Origin: JAUWCW01 sp030609125 [NCBI: Candidatus Rokuibacteriota bacterium]
GTDB taxonomy: Bacteria; JAUVQV01
Direction of reading: 5' to 3'
DNA: 8,672 nt
NCBI GenBank assembly: GCA_030609125.1
Contig: JAUWCW010000070.1
Coordinates: forward strand, 1 to 8,672
Each line of letters begins with the position of its first letter. Within the stretch, counting starts at the first letter, position 1. Below, piece after piece: positions 2,456 through 8,672 of this stretch. The notes below the pieces were generated by a model. The model was not told the origin of the DNA, did not search any database, and was given only the letters and a program-made list of their open reading frames with translations. The position numbers and the translations under genes are program-made.

Positions 2456-3310
2456 ATGAACATGCTGAAGAGAAGCCTGCCCGGCCGGAGAGAGGCGGTC
2501 CTTATCGCTGCCCTTGGCGCCGCTTTTTTCGGCAGCGGCGCTGCGGGATCTGCAGGAGGAGGTGAGGAGATGGGAGAGAGCGTGCCACTACTGGATCGGT
2601 ACGTTCCCGGAAAGACCGAGACGGCGACGTTCGCCCTCGGCTGATTCTGGGGGCCCGACTCCCGGTTCGGGAGTATACCCGGGGTGGTGGAGACCCGTGT
2701 GGGGTACACGGGGGGGAGCACGGAATCGCCCACCTACCGCCGCCTTGGGGACCACACTGAGGCCTTCCGGGTGGAGTACGACCCTGGGGTTGTCAGCTAC
2801 GAGGACCTCCTCGCCGTCTTCTGGATGGACCACGATCCCGGGCAGGGACAGTGGTCGAAGCAGTACCGGACGGCGGTCTTCTATCACGACCCCGGCCAGA
2901 AGGAGCGTGCCGTGCGGTCACGGGACCGCATCGCCTCCGCGCGGGGAATCAAGGTCACCACGGCCATAGAACCGGCAGGAACCTTCTATCCGGCCGAGGA
3001 CTATCATCAGAAGCACGACCTCCGCCGCCATGGCGGCCTCCTGGGGGAATATGCCTCCCTCTACCCGGTGCCGGAGGATTTCGTCAGGTCAACTGCCGTG
3101 GCGCGGGTCAACGGCTTTCTCGGCGGCAACGGCACCCTGGAAGACCTTGAGGCCGCGATGGCGGGTCTCGGCCTGTCGGCACAGGGGGAGCGAAAACTCA
3201 GGGAGTACGTGGCGACGAGCTCTCCCCGACGGGCCTGCCCGGTTCCGGCGAAAAGGAAGCCGAACCGGATTCGGGACGGGGCCTCTCGAGAACCCTCTCC
3301 AGCCCGGTGA
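2456..3310 (+). CDS. msrA: Selenocysteine-containing peptide methionine sulfoxide reductase MsrA (in-frame UGA = Sec63)
   Basis: MsrA reduces methionine-S-sulfoxide in proteins, repairing oxidative damage. The frame is open from ATG 2456 to the TGA at 3308-3310 except for one TGA at 2642-2644. There the protein reads ATFALG-U-FWG, so U replaces the catalytic Cys of the GCFWG motif. Family motifs flank it on both sides: PGVVETRVGYTGG, PTYRRLGDHTEAF (catalytic Glu102), QYRTAVFY (Tyr137), FYPAEDYHQKH (about 177-187) and VNGFLGGNGTLEDL. With Sec it is 284 residues. Residues 1-36 resemble a signal peptide with a twin Arg (GRREAVLIAAL...), suggesting export. An in-frame ATG at 2570 (Met39) has a perfect AGGAGGTGA ahead of it and would give a cytosolic 246-residue form. 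The only Cys is Cys261 in an Arg/Pro-rich tail that overlaps the opposing tolC-like gene. Conventional annotation would miss the first half or call a pseudogene. Confidence 0.9.
2557..2565 (+). promoter_or_regulatory. Perfect Shine-Dalgarno AGGAGGTGA before internal msrA ATG
   Basis: AGGAGGTGA is fully complementary to the 16S rRNA tail and lies 4 bp before the in-frame ATG at 2570 (7 bp counted from GGAGG). The first possible ATG (2456) has no comparable site. This either marks the true start of a cytosolic MsrA or a second start within a longer exported form; alternatively it is a chance result of the Gly/Glu codons it encodes (GGGEE). Confidence 0.6.
2642..2680 (+). promoter_or_regulatory. 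Bacterial SECIS element directing Sec insertion at msrA UGA
   Basis: The UGA at 2642-2644 is followed by a hairpin. The upper stem is a perfect 7 bp, ACTCCCG (2658-2664) with CGGGAGT (2668-2674), and the apical loop is GTT (2665-2667). Below it lies a small internal loop and a GGG/CCC lower stem (2651-2653 with 2678-2680). Twenty nucleotides separate the UGA from the apical loop, whose first base is G. Both fit the published general model for bacterial SECIS hairpins read by SelB. The hairpin lies inside the coding sequence (SRFGSIP region), as is usual in bacteria. Confidence 0.8.
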
Positions 3311-4538
3311 CGGCCTTGAAGGTCTCCGCCAGGGCGTCGGTGTGCTCGTTACGGGAGCGGGTGAGGAAGAACCGGGCGTCGGTGAAGTCCGTGGCGATGC
3401 CGAGCCGCGCCTTGAAGAGGCTTTCGTTGACGCGGTAGTTCTCTTCGGCCTGCCCCACCGCCACCCGGGCGGTGGCGGTGTTTGCCCGGGCGACGCGGTA
3501 GCGCTCCAGGGCCGTTTCGAGCTGCAGCACCAGTTCCGCCTCCGTGTCCATCAGGGCTTCCGCATTGGCCCTTGCGCGATACTCCGCCTCTTCGACTTCG
3601 TGCTTCGTGCGCCGGCCGTTGTAGAGATTCCAGGTCGCGTTCAGCCTGGCCGACGTGTCGCTGTCAAAGCCGCCGTCCTGCCCGTCGGGGAAGATGGTGT
3701 CGCCGAAGTTGTCGTGAGCGAGGACGAAGTCCACCCGCGGCCAGTAGGGTGCCCCGCGGCGCTCCCGGTTTTCCTCCAGGGCCACCTGCAGGCTCTTCAG
3801 GTAGCGGATCTCGCTGCGGTTTTCCAGCATCTCCTCCTTCAGGGAGGGGAAGGAGAGCTCTCCGGGATCGGGTAGATCCGTGAAGGGTTCCAGGCGCTCG
3901 GTTTCCGGAAGCGCTGTACCCAGAAGTCTCACCAGCGCCTTGCGAGCCAGGTGCCGATCACCCTCGGTGCGAAGCAGGTCCTGCCGGGCCGAAGAGAGCT
4001 CCACTTCCACGCGGAGCAGGTCGTTCTTGGCCGTCAACCCCTGCTGAAAAAAACGTTCCGCATCCCGCCTCTGCTCTTCGAGGAGCTGAACACTTTCCTG
4101 GTTCGTCGCCACCAGGCGCTGCGCCCGCAGGGAGTCTATGAAGGCCCACCTGACGGCGAGGGCGATGTCGGCTTCGACGGATCGCCGCTGATAGGCGGCG
4201 GCGGAGGCGCGGGCGCGGCTTTCCGCCAGGCCGTGCTTGTCCGCCTTGCCCTTGAAGAGGTTGTAGGAGAGCTCGAGGGTGAAGACCGACGCCTCGTCGC
4301 CGAGGTTGAAGATTTCCTGCTCGCTCTGGCGATAGTTGTAGTTCACGTCGAAGGAAGGGAAGAAGTTCGATCGGGAGGTGCCGACGCGGGCGGCGGCGGA
4401 CTGCTCCAGATGCAGGGCCTCCTTGATCCGGTGATTGTGAGCCAGGGCCAGTTCCACCGCCTCGTCGATGGTCAGGGCCGGGGCCGCGCCGGCGGTGAAG
4501 GCGGCCAGAAACAGGGCGGTGCAGCAGATCCGTTTCAT
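3198..4538 (-). CDS. TolC-family outer-membrane efflux protein
   Basis: A predicted 446-residue outer-membrane/periplasmic channel, the exit duct of the tripartite pump encoded just upstream. Residues 1-21 are a signal peptide (MKRICCTALFLAAFTAGAAPA). The mature chain starts LTIDEAVELALAHNHRIKEA, the typical OEP-family opening. Two OEP repeats follow (about 24-210 and 228-420). Each combines beta segments (FDVNYNYRQSEQ and FTLELSYNLFKG; ARLNATWNLYNG) with long Ala/Glu/Arg-rich helices of the periplasmic tunnel. The start at 4538 is chosen because AAGGAG lies 7 bp upstream and the signal peptide follows; the longer open frame running to 5066 lies inside the pump gene. The gap to the pump stop codon is 2 bp. 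The C-terminal tail (about 410-446) is Pro/Ser-rich, probably disordered, and is coded opposite the end of msrA. Confidence 0.93.
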   Translation of the reverse strand: MKRICCTALFLAAFTAGAAPALTIDEAVELALAHNHRIKEALHLEQSAAARVGTSRSNFFPSFDVNYNYRQSEQEIFNLGDEASVFTLELSYNLFKGKADKHGLAESRARASAAAYQRRSVEADIALAVRWAFIDSLRAQRLVATNQESVQLLEEQRRDAERFFQQGLTAKNDLLRVEVELSSARQDLLRTEGDRHLARKALVRLLGTALPETERLEPFTDLPDPGELSFPSLKEEMLENRSEIRYLKSLQVALEENRERRGAPYWPRVDFVLAHDNFGDTIFPDGQDGGFDSDTSARLNATWNLYNGRRTKHEVEEAEYRARANAEALMDTEAELVLQLETALERYRVARANTATARVAVGQAEENYRVNESLFKARLGIATDFTDARFFLTRSRNEHTDALAETFKAVTGLERVLERPRPESGSASFSPEPGRPVGESSSPRTP

Positions 4539-4540
4539 TC

Positions 4541-7500
4541 TCAGGCTCCTTCGCTTCCAGGCAAGGCTCGTTTTTCCATCCGGATCACGAAGATAAGGAT
4601 GGAGGGAATGACGAAGACCGTGAAGATCGTCGATACGGCGATGCCGCCGAGAATGACGCTGCCCAGGCCGCTGTAGAGCTCCGATCCCGACCCGCGGAAG
4701 AGCACGAGGGGGAGCATGCCGAAGATGCTCGTGGCGGCGCTCATGTAGATCGGCCGCAGCCTGCTCCGGGTCGACTCCAGGACCGCTTCGCGGTAGTCCA
4801 TTCCGTGAATGCGGACGTTGTTGAGGGCCTGGTGGACGATGAGGATGGCGTTGTTCACCACCACGCCGATGAGAATGACGAACCCGAGCATGGTGAGGAT
4901 GTCCATCGGCTGGGGGGCGACGAAGATGTTCAGCAGCTTCAGGCCGATGAATCCTCCGGCGCCCGCCAGGGGAACGGTGAGCAGGATGATGAGAGGGTAG
5001 ATGAAGTTGCCGAAGAGGGACGCCATGAGGAGGTAGGAGATCACGGCGGCGAGGACGAAGTTCCACTGCATGGCCTTGCGGGTCTCGGTCAGCTTGTCCG
5101 CCGCTCCGCTGAGACGGATGTCGAGTCCCTCCAGAAGGCCCTGTGAGCGGAAAGGTTCCACGATCTCCTCTTCGATCTTTTCCATGGCCGCCTGGAGAGG
5201 AACCGCGAGAGGGGGGGTGATCTGCAGAGTGATCGTGCGGTTGCGCTCCAGGTGCCGGATCTGGGCCATGCCGGTCGTCTGCGCCATGGAAGCGAGGCTC
5301 GAGACGGGCACCACCTTTCCCTGAGGCGTCACCACCAGGGCCCGGAAGAGGTCTTCGGGCGTGCCGATGCTCGCTTCATCGGTCTTGAGGACGAGGTCGA
5401 TGGTCTTCTTCCCCTCCTCCTTGAACTCGCCGATGACGCGTCCGTCCATGAGGACGTCCAGGGCGACCCCCAGGTCCCTGGCGGTCATGCCGTTGGCCCG
5501 CAGGCGGTCGCGGTCGGGACTGATGCGGACTTCCGGGTAGGTAAGCTCTATCGAAGGGACAGGCCTCACCTGCGCCCCCGGAAGGACCTCGCGGGCCTTG
5601 CCGAACATCATGCCCGCGGCCCTGACGATGTCGTTCAGGTCCTCGCCGCTGATGTCCACGTCGACGGTCCGCCCTTTGCCGATGCGGCTCTCGAAGACCC
5701 CGGCCTGCATGCTTATGCCGAACATGCCGGGGATGGAGTAGATAAAGCTCCGGCAGAGGGGGAGGAGGTCCCTCGCCCTCTGCCAGTCCATGCTCATGGC
5801 GCCGAAGAGCATGAAGCCCTCACGGCCGACGTAGAACATGTTGAGGATCCCCGGGAAGCCGTCTTTCGGCTGACCTATGTGGGGCCCGGCCATCTCGAAG
5901 AGCTTCTCCCCTATCTCCTGCCGTTCCGCCTGAGAGAGCCCCGGGGGAGGGACAAGGATGTTTACGATGAAGTTGCGGTTGCCCTTCGGCAGGTACTCCA
6001 TCTTCGGCATGAGGACCACCGTGGATCCCGCCGCCAGGGTGATGAGGACGGCCACCGTCGTCAGCCTGGTCGCCCAGTTCCGCGTGGCGACGGACACGGA
6101 GCCCATGATGACGGTGGAGAGGAGCCCGCCGACGGCGGACAGGGGACCTTTCCTCGGCCTTTCCGGCTTGCCCTCCGTACGGGCGTAGAGCTTGTTGGCC
6201 AGGGAGGGAATGACCGTTATCGAGACGAGGAGGCTGAGAGACACCGCCGCCACCACCGCCAGGGCGATGTCGCGAAAGAGCTGGCCCGCCTCCTCCTGGA
6301 TGAAGACGACCGGGAGAAAGACGGCCACGGTGGTGAGAGTGGAGGCGAATACGGCCCCCCAGACCTCGCGGGTCCCCTCGTACGCCGCGTTCAGGGCGGG
6401 CTTGCCCATCTTGCGGTGGCGGTCGATATTTTCGATGACCACGATGGCGTTGTCCACCAGCATGCCGACGGCGAAGGCGATCCCCGCCAGGCTGATCACG
6501 TTCAGATTTCTGCCGAGGGCCGCCAGGAGGATGAAGGTTCCGATGATACTGATGGGGATCGCCGCCGCCACGATGACGGTGGCCCGAATGCTCCGGAGAA
6601 AGACGAGGAGCACGAAGACGGCCAGAAGGGCGCCGTAGGCGATGTTCTGCTTGATGAGATCGATGGCCCCGCGAATGTAGAAGCGCTGGTCGTACACCCA
6701 TTCGAGTTCGATGCCCCGGGGCTTGAGCTTTTCCCTGTTCAGGCGCTCCACGACGGCGCTGACCCTGTCCGTCATCTCCAGGATGTTCGTTCCCGGCTCG
6801 GGCTTGATGCCGATGGCGATGCCGCCGCCGCCGTTGTGGATCACGGTGCTCGTCGCTTTCTCGAAGCCCGCCTCGACCCGGGCGACGTTGCCGACGGTCA
6901 CCCTCCTCTGGCCGGTAGACCTGAGGACGACGGCCTCGATGTCCTCCGGCGAGCGGAATTCCCCGGTCGAGCGGATGCGGAAGTCCCGGCGGCCGACTCC
7001 CATGTTCCCCGCCGAGATATTGACGTTTTCGGCCTGGAGGGCGCCGATCACGTCCTTGATCGTGAGGCCGAAGGCCGCCAGCCGCTCGGGGCGGACGATG
7101 ATGTGCATCTCCTCTTCCACGCCGCTGCCGATGAACAGGTCCGCCACGCCCTCGACCCGCTCCAGGTGCTGGCGGATTTCGTTTTCGAAGTAGGTGCGGT
7201 AGGTGGAGATGGGCCTGGGGTTATTCTCCGCCGCCTTGAGAATGTTCCAGATCACCGGCGACGTGGCGGCGCCGCTGGCGTTGATCACCGGTTTGTCGAC
7301 AGCCGGGGGGTAGGAGCGCACTTCGTTGAGCTTGTTCGACACCCGCAGGAGGGCCTCGTCCACGACGGTCCCGATCTTGAAGCGCAGGGTGATGGTCCCC
7401 CGGCTGTTGCGCGAATCGCTCTCCATTTCCGCCAGGCCCGGTATGCCCTTGAGGACGTTCTCCTGCTCCTCGATGATTTCCCTCTCGATCTCGTACGGCG

Positions 7501-7663
7501 TCGCCCCCCTCCAGACGGTGGTGACGGTGATCTCCGGCTCGATGACGGTGGGGCTGAGCTGGTAGGGGAGGCGGTTGAGACTGATGATTCCGAAAAGAAG
7601 GATGATGATGACGCCGACGATCACCGTCACCGGCTTCTCGATGGAGAAACGGACGATGTCCAT
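4541..7663 (-). CDS. RND-family inner-membrane efflux pump (AcrB/HAE-like)
   Basis: A 1040-residue protein, the usual size for resistance-nodulation-division transporters, which use the proton gradient to move substrate from periplasm or membrane into a TolC duct. The layout is standard: TM1 (about 11-30), a large periplasmic loop (31-335), TM2-TM6 (336-488), TM7 (about 534-552), a second periplasmic loop (553-865) and TM8-TM12 (866-1027). In TM4 the motif is GMLVDNAIVVIEN, so Asp404 aligns with AcrB Asp407 and Asn405 with Asp408. In TM10 GVVVNNAIL has Asn937 at the AcrB Lys940 position, and TM11 Ser975 aligns with Thr978. The relay thus differs from AcrB; similar DN/NN versions exist in other RND subgroups (recalled knowledge). 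The motifs do not match heavy-metal pumps of the CusA type. ATG at 7663 directly abuts the adaptor stop codon and has no strong Shine-Dalgarno sequence, suggesting translational coupling. The substrate is not determinable. Confidence 0.95.
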   Translation of the reverse strand: MDIVRFSIEKPVTVIVGVIIILLFGIISLNRLPYQLSPTVIEPEITVTTVWRGATPYEIEREIIEEQENVLKGIPGLAEMESDSRNSRGTITLRFKIGTVVDEALLRVSNKLNEVRSYPPAVDKPVINASGAATSPVIWNILKAAENNPRPISTYRTYFENEIRQHLERVEGVADLFIGSGVEEEMHIIVRPERLAAFGLTIKDVIGALQAENVNISAGNMGVGRRDFRIRSTGEFRSPEDIEAVVLRSTGQRRVTVGNVARVEAGFEKATSTVIHNGGGGIAIGIKPEPGTNILEMTDRVSAVVERLNREKLKPRGIELEWVYDQRFYIRGAIDLIKQNIAYGALLAVFVLLVFLRSIRATVIVAAAIPISIIGTFILLAALGRNLNVISLAGIAFAVGMLVDNAIVVIENIDRHRKMGKPALNAAYEGTREVWGAVFASTLTTVAVFLPVVFIQEEAGQLFRDIALAVVAAVSLSLLVSITVIPSLANKLYARTEGKPERPRKGPLSAVGGLLSTVIMGSVSVATRNWATRLTTVAVLITLAAGSTVVLMPKMEYLPKGNRNFIVNILVPPPGLSQAERQEIGEKLFEMAGPHIGQPKDGFPGILNMFYVGREGFMLFGAMSMDWQRARDLLPLCRSFIYSIPGMFGISMQAGVFESRIGKGRTVDVDISGEDLNDIVRAAGMMFGKAREVLPGAQVRPVPSIELTYPEVRISPDRDRLRANGMTARDLGVALDVLMDGRVIGEFKEEGKKTIDLVLKTDEASIGTPEDLFRALVVTPQGKVVPVSSLASMAQTTGMAQIRHLERNRTITLQITPPLAVPLQAAMEKIEEEIVEPFRSQGLLEGLDIRLSGAADKLTETRKAMQWNFVLAAVISYLLMASLFGNFIYPLIILLTVPLAGAGGFIGLKLLNIFVAPQPMDILTMLGFVILIGVVVNNAILIVHQALNNVRIHGMDYREAVLESTRSRLRPIYMSAATSIFGMLPLVLFRGSGSELYSGLGSVILGGIAVSTIFTVFVIPSILIFVIRMEKRALPGSEGA

Positions 7664-8672
7664 CTATTGGGCCGTACGGACCGGCTGCCCGTCGCGGAGC
7701 CGCTCGTTGCCCTTGACGACAACGCTCAGCCCCTCTTCCAGCCCGGGACCGGAGACGCCGGTCCTGAGGCCGTCATGGCCGGTTACGGTGACGGGAATCA
7801 TCGCCGCCGCCCCGTCCCTGACGGCGAAGACCACGGTCCGCCCATGCTTGTCGATCACGGCGTCGCGGGGGACGACGAGGCCGGAGGTCTTCCGGTCCGT
7901 AGGCATCGTCGCCCGGGCCTCCATACCCTCCACGAGGCCGGCGGTGTTTTCGAGCCGGAGCTTGACGGAGAAGGTTCTCGTGGCGATGTCCCCCTTGGGA
8001 ACGAAGCTGACAAAACGGGCCTTCAGGTTCTTGCCGGCACAGGTGATGTCGATTTTTCTCCCCTCCCGGAGATGCTGCAGCAGGTTCGCCGGAATGTCCA
8101 CGACGACGTCGATCTCGGCGTCGTCGGCCACCACCGCCACGGTGCCGCCCTCGGAGACCCACTCGCCCTTCTCGACGCTCTTCTTCATGACGATGCCGGC
8201 GAAGGGTGAGAGAATGGCCTTCTTCTTCTTCTCGAGGAGCTGGCGCTCCAGGGCGATCTTGAGCACGGCGGCTCTTCTTTCGAGGCGCTTCTTCTTGAAG
8301 TGGTGTTCGTCGAAGACCACCTCCGCCACCGAGCCCTCCCGATAGAGGGGGTCTATGCGCTTCAGGCTTTTCTCCGCCTCCTCCAGGTCGACCAGGACCT
8401 GCTCGTACGTCTCTCTCGATCCCTCGATGGTCATGTCCAGCAGGTCCGTGTTCAGCCGCACGAGCTCCTGCTCCGCCTCGACACGCCGCCCTTCCTCGAA
8501 CGAGACCACGTCCACTCTGCCCTCGATCTCGGCGGCCACCTCGGAGACCCGGGCGTAGTACACGGTGCCGACGAACTCGGTCATCGGCTCCGTCGAACCC
8601 GTCGTGACGGGCGCCACGGCGACCAGCGTCGGCGGCGGGCCCTTCGGCCTGGCCGAATTCTGAGCGCCCTTT
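7664..8672 (-). CDS. RND periplasmic adaptor (membrane fusion protein, HlyD/AcrA type), 5' end cut by window
   Basis: This adaptor links the RND pump to the TolC-like channel in the periplasm. The frame is open to the right window edge, so the start and any signal peptide or lipobox lie outside; 335 codons are visible. The first visible residues include a Pro-rich PPPTLVAVAPVTTGSTEP, a typical start of the mature adaptor. Then come a first lipoyl half (AAEIEGRVDVVSFEEGRRVEA), an alpha-helical hairpin rich in Glu, Lys and Leu (roughly RLNTDLLDMTIEGSRETY to LERQLLEKKKK), the second lipoyl half (AILSPFAGIVMKKSVEKGEWVSEG), a beta-barrel domain and a membrane-proximal domain (VVPRDAVIDKHGRTVVFAV). 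A GTG at 8615-8617 could be mistaken for the start, but coding clearly continues upstream of it. The stop codon TAG touches the pump's ATG. No regulator gene for the operon is visible. Confidence 0.92.
   Translation of the reverse strand, partial: KGAQNSARPKGPPPTLVAVAPVTTGSTEPMTEFVGTVYYARVSEVAAEIEGRVDVVSFEEGRRVEAEQELVRLNTDLLDMTIEGSRETYEQVLVDLEEAEKSLKRIDPLYREGSVAEVVFDEHHFKKKRLERRAAVLKIALERQLLEKKKKAILSPFAGIVMKKSVEKGEWVSEGGTVAVVADDAEIDVVVDIPANLLQHLREGRKIDITCAGKNLKARFVSFVPKGDIATRTFSVKLRLENTAGLVEGMEARATMPTDRKTSGLVVPRDAVIDKHGRTVVFAVRDGAAAMIPVTVTGHDGLRTGVSGPGLEEGLSVVVKGNERLRDGQPVRTAQ

Follow-up and report, generated by a model that had tools for sequence, protein, structure and literature searches.

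The analysed window, a stretch of 8,672 nucleotides, begins with a gene for a MerR-type regulator with a Cys-rich tail (399-857; open reading frame list and Pfam) and one for a FadL-type outer membrane protein (1001-2287; Pfam). These are followed on the forward strand by msrA (2456-3310), which by translation with TGA read as U, Pfam and TIGR00401 is predicted to encode a selenoprotein methionine-S-sulfoxide reductase, and on the reverse strand by an RND efflux set (3198-8671) comprising an RND pump, a TolC-like protein and a membrane fusion protein whose gene is incomplete at the end of the window. The tolC-like gene converges on msrA, and by their ORF ends the two overlap by 113 bases (3198-3310), a stretch that codes for the C-terminal tail of MsrA on one strand and belongs to the 3' end of the tolC-like gene on the other. 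Between the FadL/Toluene_X-type gene and msrA lie a terminator-like hairpin with a T-run (2319-2346) and a perfect inverted repeat with 22-base arms (2357-2419; GGGGTCAGGCACTGAAACGTGA). The arms recur on other contigs, with one on C288, both on C360 and a recurrence with two mismatches on C21, making six arms in all, and the element looks like an interspersed repetitive hairpin.

Read through a TGA at 2642-2644, the frame of msrA gives 284 residues including selenocysteine (Sec) 63. This TGA is the sole in-frame stop inside the gene, whose terminal stop is another TGA at 3308-3310, and it stands at the position of the catalytic Cys of the motif GCFWG, which here becomes GUFWG (residues 62-66), just as the sequence-only reading of this DNA had noticed. 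That MsrA-type sequence continues in the same frame on both sides of the TGA is borne out by Pfam, where the catalytic domain PF01625 (PMSR) matches residues 56-189 (2621-3022) and thereby spans the TGA, with an E of 2.4e-40 and 138.7 bits against a cut-off of 23.7; the NCBIfam model TIGR00401 (msrA) adds 128.6 bits against a cut-off of 108.1. It is the sole MsrA match in the draft genome, which elsewhere has one MsrB without an in-frame stop. Plain ORF calling splits the gene into one ORF of 62 residues and another of 208, the kind of truncation that had been foreseen for automated annotation. This mechanical outcome is also what could be held in favour of the UGA being a real stop, with a 62-residue peptide and a second product from an internal start, e.g. 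GTG 2684. Neither product, however, would combine the catalytic residue with the domain, the homology crosses the TGA, and the hairpin and the Sec machinery described below would be left unexplained; such a pair of products is exceedingly improbable.

The genome itself (a draft of 2.3 Mb in 376 contigs, 92% complete and 2% contaminated) contains selA, selB, selC and selD, the four genes by which the proposal of Sec insertion was to be checked, so that the lack of selB or selC that would have refuted it does not apply. A tRNA-Sec with the anticodon TCA scores 67.9 bits against an Rfam gathering score of 47 and is called by ARAGORN as well, with ten further, weaker matches all staying under the gathering score. 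SelA (525.9 bits) and SelB (314.5 bits), both above cut-off, are adjacent on contig C310; SelB has a winged-helix domain, and its frame leaves the contig end, with the last C-terminal part lying beyond it. SelD (362.8 bits) has an in-frame TGA of its own, in the context CGU. Another in-frame TGA occurs in a small glutaredoxin on contig C247 (L152:1489-1689, reverse strand; Pfam 39.1 bits against 22.9) at the motif UPYT, and this protein is likely to be a second thiol-type selenoprotein of the genome. On contig C21, a formate-dehydrogenase-like molybdopterin enzyme carries an in-frame TGA ahead of HSATVAA; each of its pieces stays below the cut-off of TIGR01591, a Tat-signal match of 21.1 bits falls slightly short of the 22.7 that Pfam requires, and the best formate dehydrogenase match of the genome, on contig C301, has no in-frame stop.

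Several in-frame TGA codons in one genome are also what a genome-wide reassignment of UGA to Gly or Trp, without any selenocysteine, would produce. Those of SelD and formate dehydrogenase, however, stand at known Sec positions, as does that of the glutaredoxin (PMC13188914 lists glutaredoxin UxxC). Moreover, TGA terminates the RND pump gene (4541-4543) and msrA itself, and a UCA tRNA-Sec together with SelA and SelB accounts for the TGA codons, which leaves reassignment with a negligible probability. Wrong binning of the contig is unlikely too, because the tetranucleotide make-up of the window matches nine pieces of its own genome, the sel genes included, better (correlation 0.83-0.89) than 14 loci from other genomes (0.27-0.78).

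Is the TGA codon peculiar to this gene? The fetched loci yielded 115 MsrA rows; at the codon that corresponds to residue 63, 8 of them (this gene counted) have TGA and the other 107 TGT or TGC, and the comparison with Cys-containing homologues thus came out as the sequence-only reading had implied. The 8 TGA genes span 7 genomes; seven of them lie in six genomes other than our own, one of which (G303) has two Sec MsrA genes, one lacking and one having a hydrophobic N-terminus (L135 and L136). In a survey of 386 genomes, nine had an MsrA match at an E of 1e-40 or better, and seven of these nine carry TGA at the site, and a search of the phylum of genome G036 gave two matches in seven genomes, both already known, and no new gene. 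The scan of genome contigs leans towards Cys forms, because its patterns included TFALGCFW, with Cys in the place of Sec, and is therefore no basis for estimating how frequent Sec forms are; the 17 MsrA loci from a scan of viral contigs were left out of all counts.

A tree of the best 70 of the 115 rows by bit score, plus the crystallised enzyme of Clostridium (Alkaliphilus) oremlandii (CoMsrA), contains a clade of 45 rows, of which 18 are haloarchaeal and 25 are bacterial besides CoMsrA and the gene described here. Sec and Cys forms are intermixed on this tree, with 6 changes of the Sec label (6-7 in bootstraps), of which the starred branches force only one. Sec may thus have had a single origin in this clade, the tree fitting one event or several. 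Three Halanaerobium members of the same clade (L062, L063 and L129) continue for 352 residues beyond their catalytic position. This part contains more Cys residues and may represent a fusion with a second domain, e.g. MsrB.

A SECIS-like hairpin after the TGA had been pointed out in the sequence-only reading. Directly downstream, at 2658-2674 on the forward strand, the arms ACUCCCG and CGGGAGU can form 7 pairs around the loop GUU, the putative apical hairpin of a bacterial SECIS element, with 20 nt from the UGA to the loop and -9.8 kcal/mol alone and ungapped. The published bSECIS model (PMC13188914) describes a loop of 3-9 nt, a stem of 4-16 pairs, 16-37 nt from UGA to loop, a G within the first two loop positions and an energy of -7.5 kcal/mol or lower; in our own ungapped version of this model, the hairpin satisfies all constraints. 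At the true stop (3308-3310), which had been said to have no equivalent structure, the best hairpin indeed reaches only -5.2 kcal/mol and fails. As for the other TGA genes of the genome, SelD (-9.6) and the C21 enzyme (-9.1) pass and the glutaredoxin (-6.9) narrowly fails.

By itself, this hairpin is weak evidence, because 8.9% of the 258 TGA triplets of the window (any frame, both strands) pass the bSECIS test, and 5.0% reach -9.8 kcal/mol. The 23-nt hairpin on its own folds better than its shuffles (z -2.70; 5/200 as good). Against it, the larger 49-nt stretch from the UGA (2642-2690), which had been suggested for SECIS scoring, as a whole barely surpasses shuffled sequences (z -0.79; 42/200 as good), and a 39-nt stretch gives a z of -0.34. 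The folding energy of a whole stretch was tried as a SECIS test and rejected as uninformative in G+C-rich sequence. An Rfam search of the window found no family at its gathering score.

Comparative evidence was used instead of the bSECIS test, because the latter passes 24 of the 107 Cys forms too and, with L130, L133 and L024 missing the -7.5 kcal/mol, only 5 of the 8 Sec forms. The mean number of hairpin pairs out of 7 is 5.75 in the 8 Sec genes, 2.83 in 18 near Cys forms (those Cys rows at 165 bits or more) and 1.51 in the 89 far ones. Thus, as judged from the aligned genes, the hairpin is largely paired in Sec genes, with most Cys relatives being without it. In the Sec genes, 82.1% of hairpin cells pair, as against 19.6-58.9% with the partner slid by 1-3 columns, and two pairs have changed on both sides (C-G to G-C and U-A to A-U). 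The covariation is modest: 20 of 500 shuffles equal the observed values for percentage paired and covariation score, 126 of 500 have as many two-sided pair changes, and 284 of 500 have as many further pair types. The Gly codon at +9, which lies in the 3' arm of the hairpin, is GGG in all 8 Sec genes versus 8 of the 18 near Cys forms (Fisher p 0.0095, only a guide with sequences that are related), and downstream Gly codons in the same 8 Sec genes are GGG in 17 of 100 cases; the Phe codon just before it is TTC in 8/8 Sec genes versus 9/16 near Cys forms (p 0.054).

It is against this background that a pseudogene or a base-calling error has to be weighed, in which the gene would be a normal Cys MsrA whose catalytic codon has suffered a nonsense mutation or has been misread. 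The assembly is a fragmented draft and, moreover, the most similar MsrA among the loci found (L052, from 'Syntrophobacterales bacterium Delta_01', with 61% identity over residues 47-227) is a Cys form that shares with our gene a hydrophobic N-terminus and 6 of the 7 hairpin pairs (L052:676-720), but has TGC where TGA stands here. In this relative, Sec may recently have given way to Cys, with a fossil SECIS being left behind; replacements of this kind have been described for FdhA and a HesB-like protein (PMC1794560). Against both possibilities, however, TGA occurs again at this very codon in seven further genes, spread over six other genomes, and the 221 codons after the TGA are open, with five of the six active-site residues named for CoMsrA being kept. 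The invariant GGG at +9 is a constraint at the nucleotide level for which a Cys gene has no need, and the genome possesses the Sec machinery. We therefore regard a damaged or misread Cys gene as very unlikely, which is also how the sequence-only reading had judged a pseudogene.

Overall, our data make us highly confident that the product of msrA is a 1-Sec MsrA of the type known from C. oremlandii, i.e. one with a helical domain, with Sec predicted to be inserted at the UGA at 2642-2644. Such enzymes are already known, and an active-site stop codon is almost certainly read as selenocysteine here too. Read in this way, a gene that ORF calling had split becomes whole again, and the genome, in which at least three more candidates are present, gains a selenoprotein. 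At the level of translation, SelB carrying the Sec-tRNA(UCA) would bind the hairpin just 3' of the UGA and thereby place Sec at residue 63; the machinery and the signal can be seen in the sequence, and from these we infer the insertion itself. By analogy to CoMsrA, Sec63 should then attack the sulfoxide of methionine-S-sulfoxide, with Glu102 acting as the acid and methionine leaving. Since no resolving Cys is present in the MsrA core, reduction of the oxidised selenium would depend on a thiol from outside the protein. Most probably, although this is much less sure than these steps, the N-terminus carries at least part of the protein across the inner membrane.

This N-terminus (residues 1-36; 2456-2563, forward strand) resembles a signal peptide by hydropathy alone, in a region of low model confidence: an arginine-rich start is followed by AVLIAALGAAFFG and then by small residues, with residues 15-29 being most hydrophobic. 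The best 15-residue hydropathy is 1.93 before and 0.98 after the catalytic residue. Inspection of the sequence before ATG 2456 found no ribosome-binding site. A ribosome-binding-like AGGAGG (2557-2562) lies 7 nt ahead of an in-frame ATG at 2570-2572, which could be a second start giving a cytosolic form, since translation from there removes the signal-like stretch; both starts may be in use. Among the 26 bacterial loci of the clade, 19 of the 24 that are not truncated have a 15-residue stretch with a mean hydropathy of at least 1.9 before the catalytic residue, a count that is descriptive because the cut was chosen with the values already in view and the relatives were compared without assigned start codons. 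By the same post hoc cut, such a stretch is present in 7 of the 8 Sec loci; the haloarchaeal rows lack it throughout (0 of 18), the other MsrA rows have it in 14 of 69 cases, and the highest value after the catalytic residue in the 26 loci is 1.35. Two loci contain LTGC (L054) or LSGC (L057), which resemble a lipobox.

If these features are what they resemble, this MsrA may be sent out of the cytoplasm, at least in part. Going further, we tentatively suggest, as a proposal that is more apt to fail than to hold, that bacterial MsrAs of the CoMsrA clade, Sec forms included, could mostly be envelope enzymes, with signal peptides and in some members a lipobox, the Sec forms repairing methionine outside the cytoplasm by means of selenium, and that ATG 2570 would here add a cytosolic isoform, possibly served by the glutaredoxin, such that one gene would supply two compartments. 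The glutaredoxin on contig C247 is a candidate reductant of MsrA, and it could serve only a cytosolic form, because just 12 residues, without a signal-like stretch, precede its U. No exported Sec MsrA is named among the literature matches listed, by which subscription journals are mostly uncovered, nor in passages of PMC12013277 and PMC6211008. Should export be true, the crystallised enzyme would be the exception of its clade as to its working place, and the question would arise of what reduces, outside the cytoplasm, a Sec enzyme that has no resolving Cys.

How does this protein compare with known systems? An AlphaFold2 model (mean pLDDT 82.9) has residues 51-250 mostly above 90 and low confidence in the N-terminus (1-37 and 39-42) and the C-terminal tail. 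Its best structural match is C. oremlandii MsrA (4lwj; Z 28.8, rmsd 2.4 over 204 residues, 42% identity), with MsrA structures from other species at a Z of 19.2 and less, and Foldseek likewise ranks the C. oremlandii entries on top. Residues 53-256 of the model correspond to 6-209 of 4lwj, almost the entire length of CoMsrA, at a constant offset of 47, and nothing past residue 256 is matched. The C-terminal helical domain (residues 207-244; 3074-3187, forward strand) consists of helices in the model and is recognized by Pfam PF20939 (MsrA_helical, 'Selenoprotein methionine sulfoxide reductase A, helical domain'), although by a narrow pass (24.3 bits against a cut-off of 23.7); at an E of 0.001 this domain is found in 12 of the 21 bacterial clade rows checked.

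CoMsrA (PDB 4lwj, 4lwk, 4lwl, 4lwm, 4u66 and 7c13) is therefore the closest known system, sharing Sec at the catalytic position, the combination of catalytic and helical domain and a core without a resolving Cys. Of its active-site residues Tyr47, Glu55, Gln89, Tyr90, His137 and Tyr140 (PMC4333827), the first five are identical here, as Tyr94, Glu102, Gln136, Tyr137 and His184, and are invariant across the 21 rows aligned for the model (our gene, the seven other Sec forms and 13 of the 18 near Cys forms, i.e. those other than L056, L062, L063, L065 and L129), whereas Tyr140 is replaced by His187. The only Cys of our MsrA, residue 261, which was considered as a possible resolving Cys, lies outside the range matched to 4lwj and in the low-confidence tail; it marks a difference, because CoMsrA has no Cys at all (PMC4479559). 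L023, L024, L053 and L065 likewise have a Cys close to their C-terminus, no more than 8 residues away from it, and most rows of the clade have none there.

CoMsrA is reported to be 20-fold more active as the Sec than as the Cys form, to be reduced by glutaredoxin and not by thioredoxin, and to be able to dimerize via its catalytic residue (PMC4479559). In C. oremlandii a Sec glutaredoxin serves the enzyme (PMC13188914, PMC4479559), and the glutaredoxin with an in-frame TGA in our genome is a parallel to this. The cellular setting seems to differ. While C. oremlandii has been described as a gram-positive organism (PMC4479559), the tolC, FadL and RND genes adjoining msrA hint at cells that possess an outer membrane. 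A Sec MsrA had been listed as early as 2006 for Syntrophobacter fumaroxidans, an anaerobe with 31 selenoproteins (PMC1794560), a likeness that is based on this listing, and later lists of prokaryotic selenoproteins include MsrA as well (PMC13188914, PMC9312934). Sec forms of MsrA were thus known, as the sequence-only reading had said, and with the 2006 listing and an enzyme from C. oremlandii that has been both characterized and crystallized (PMC4333827, PMC4479559), the present one is less surprising than first thought. What this gene adds to the family, in comparison with the crystallized enzyme, are 47 additional N-terminal residues, which begin like a signal peptide and for which CoMsrA shows no counterpart, and a tail of 28 residues with its one Cys at the C-terminus.
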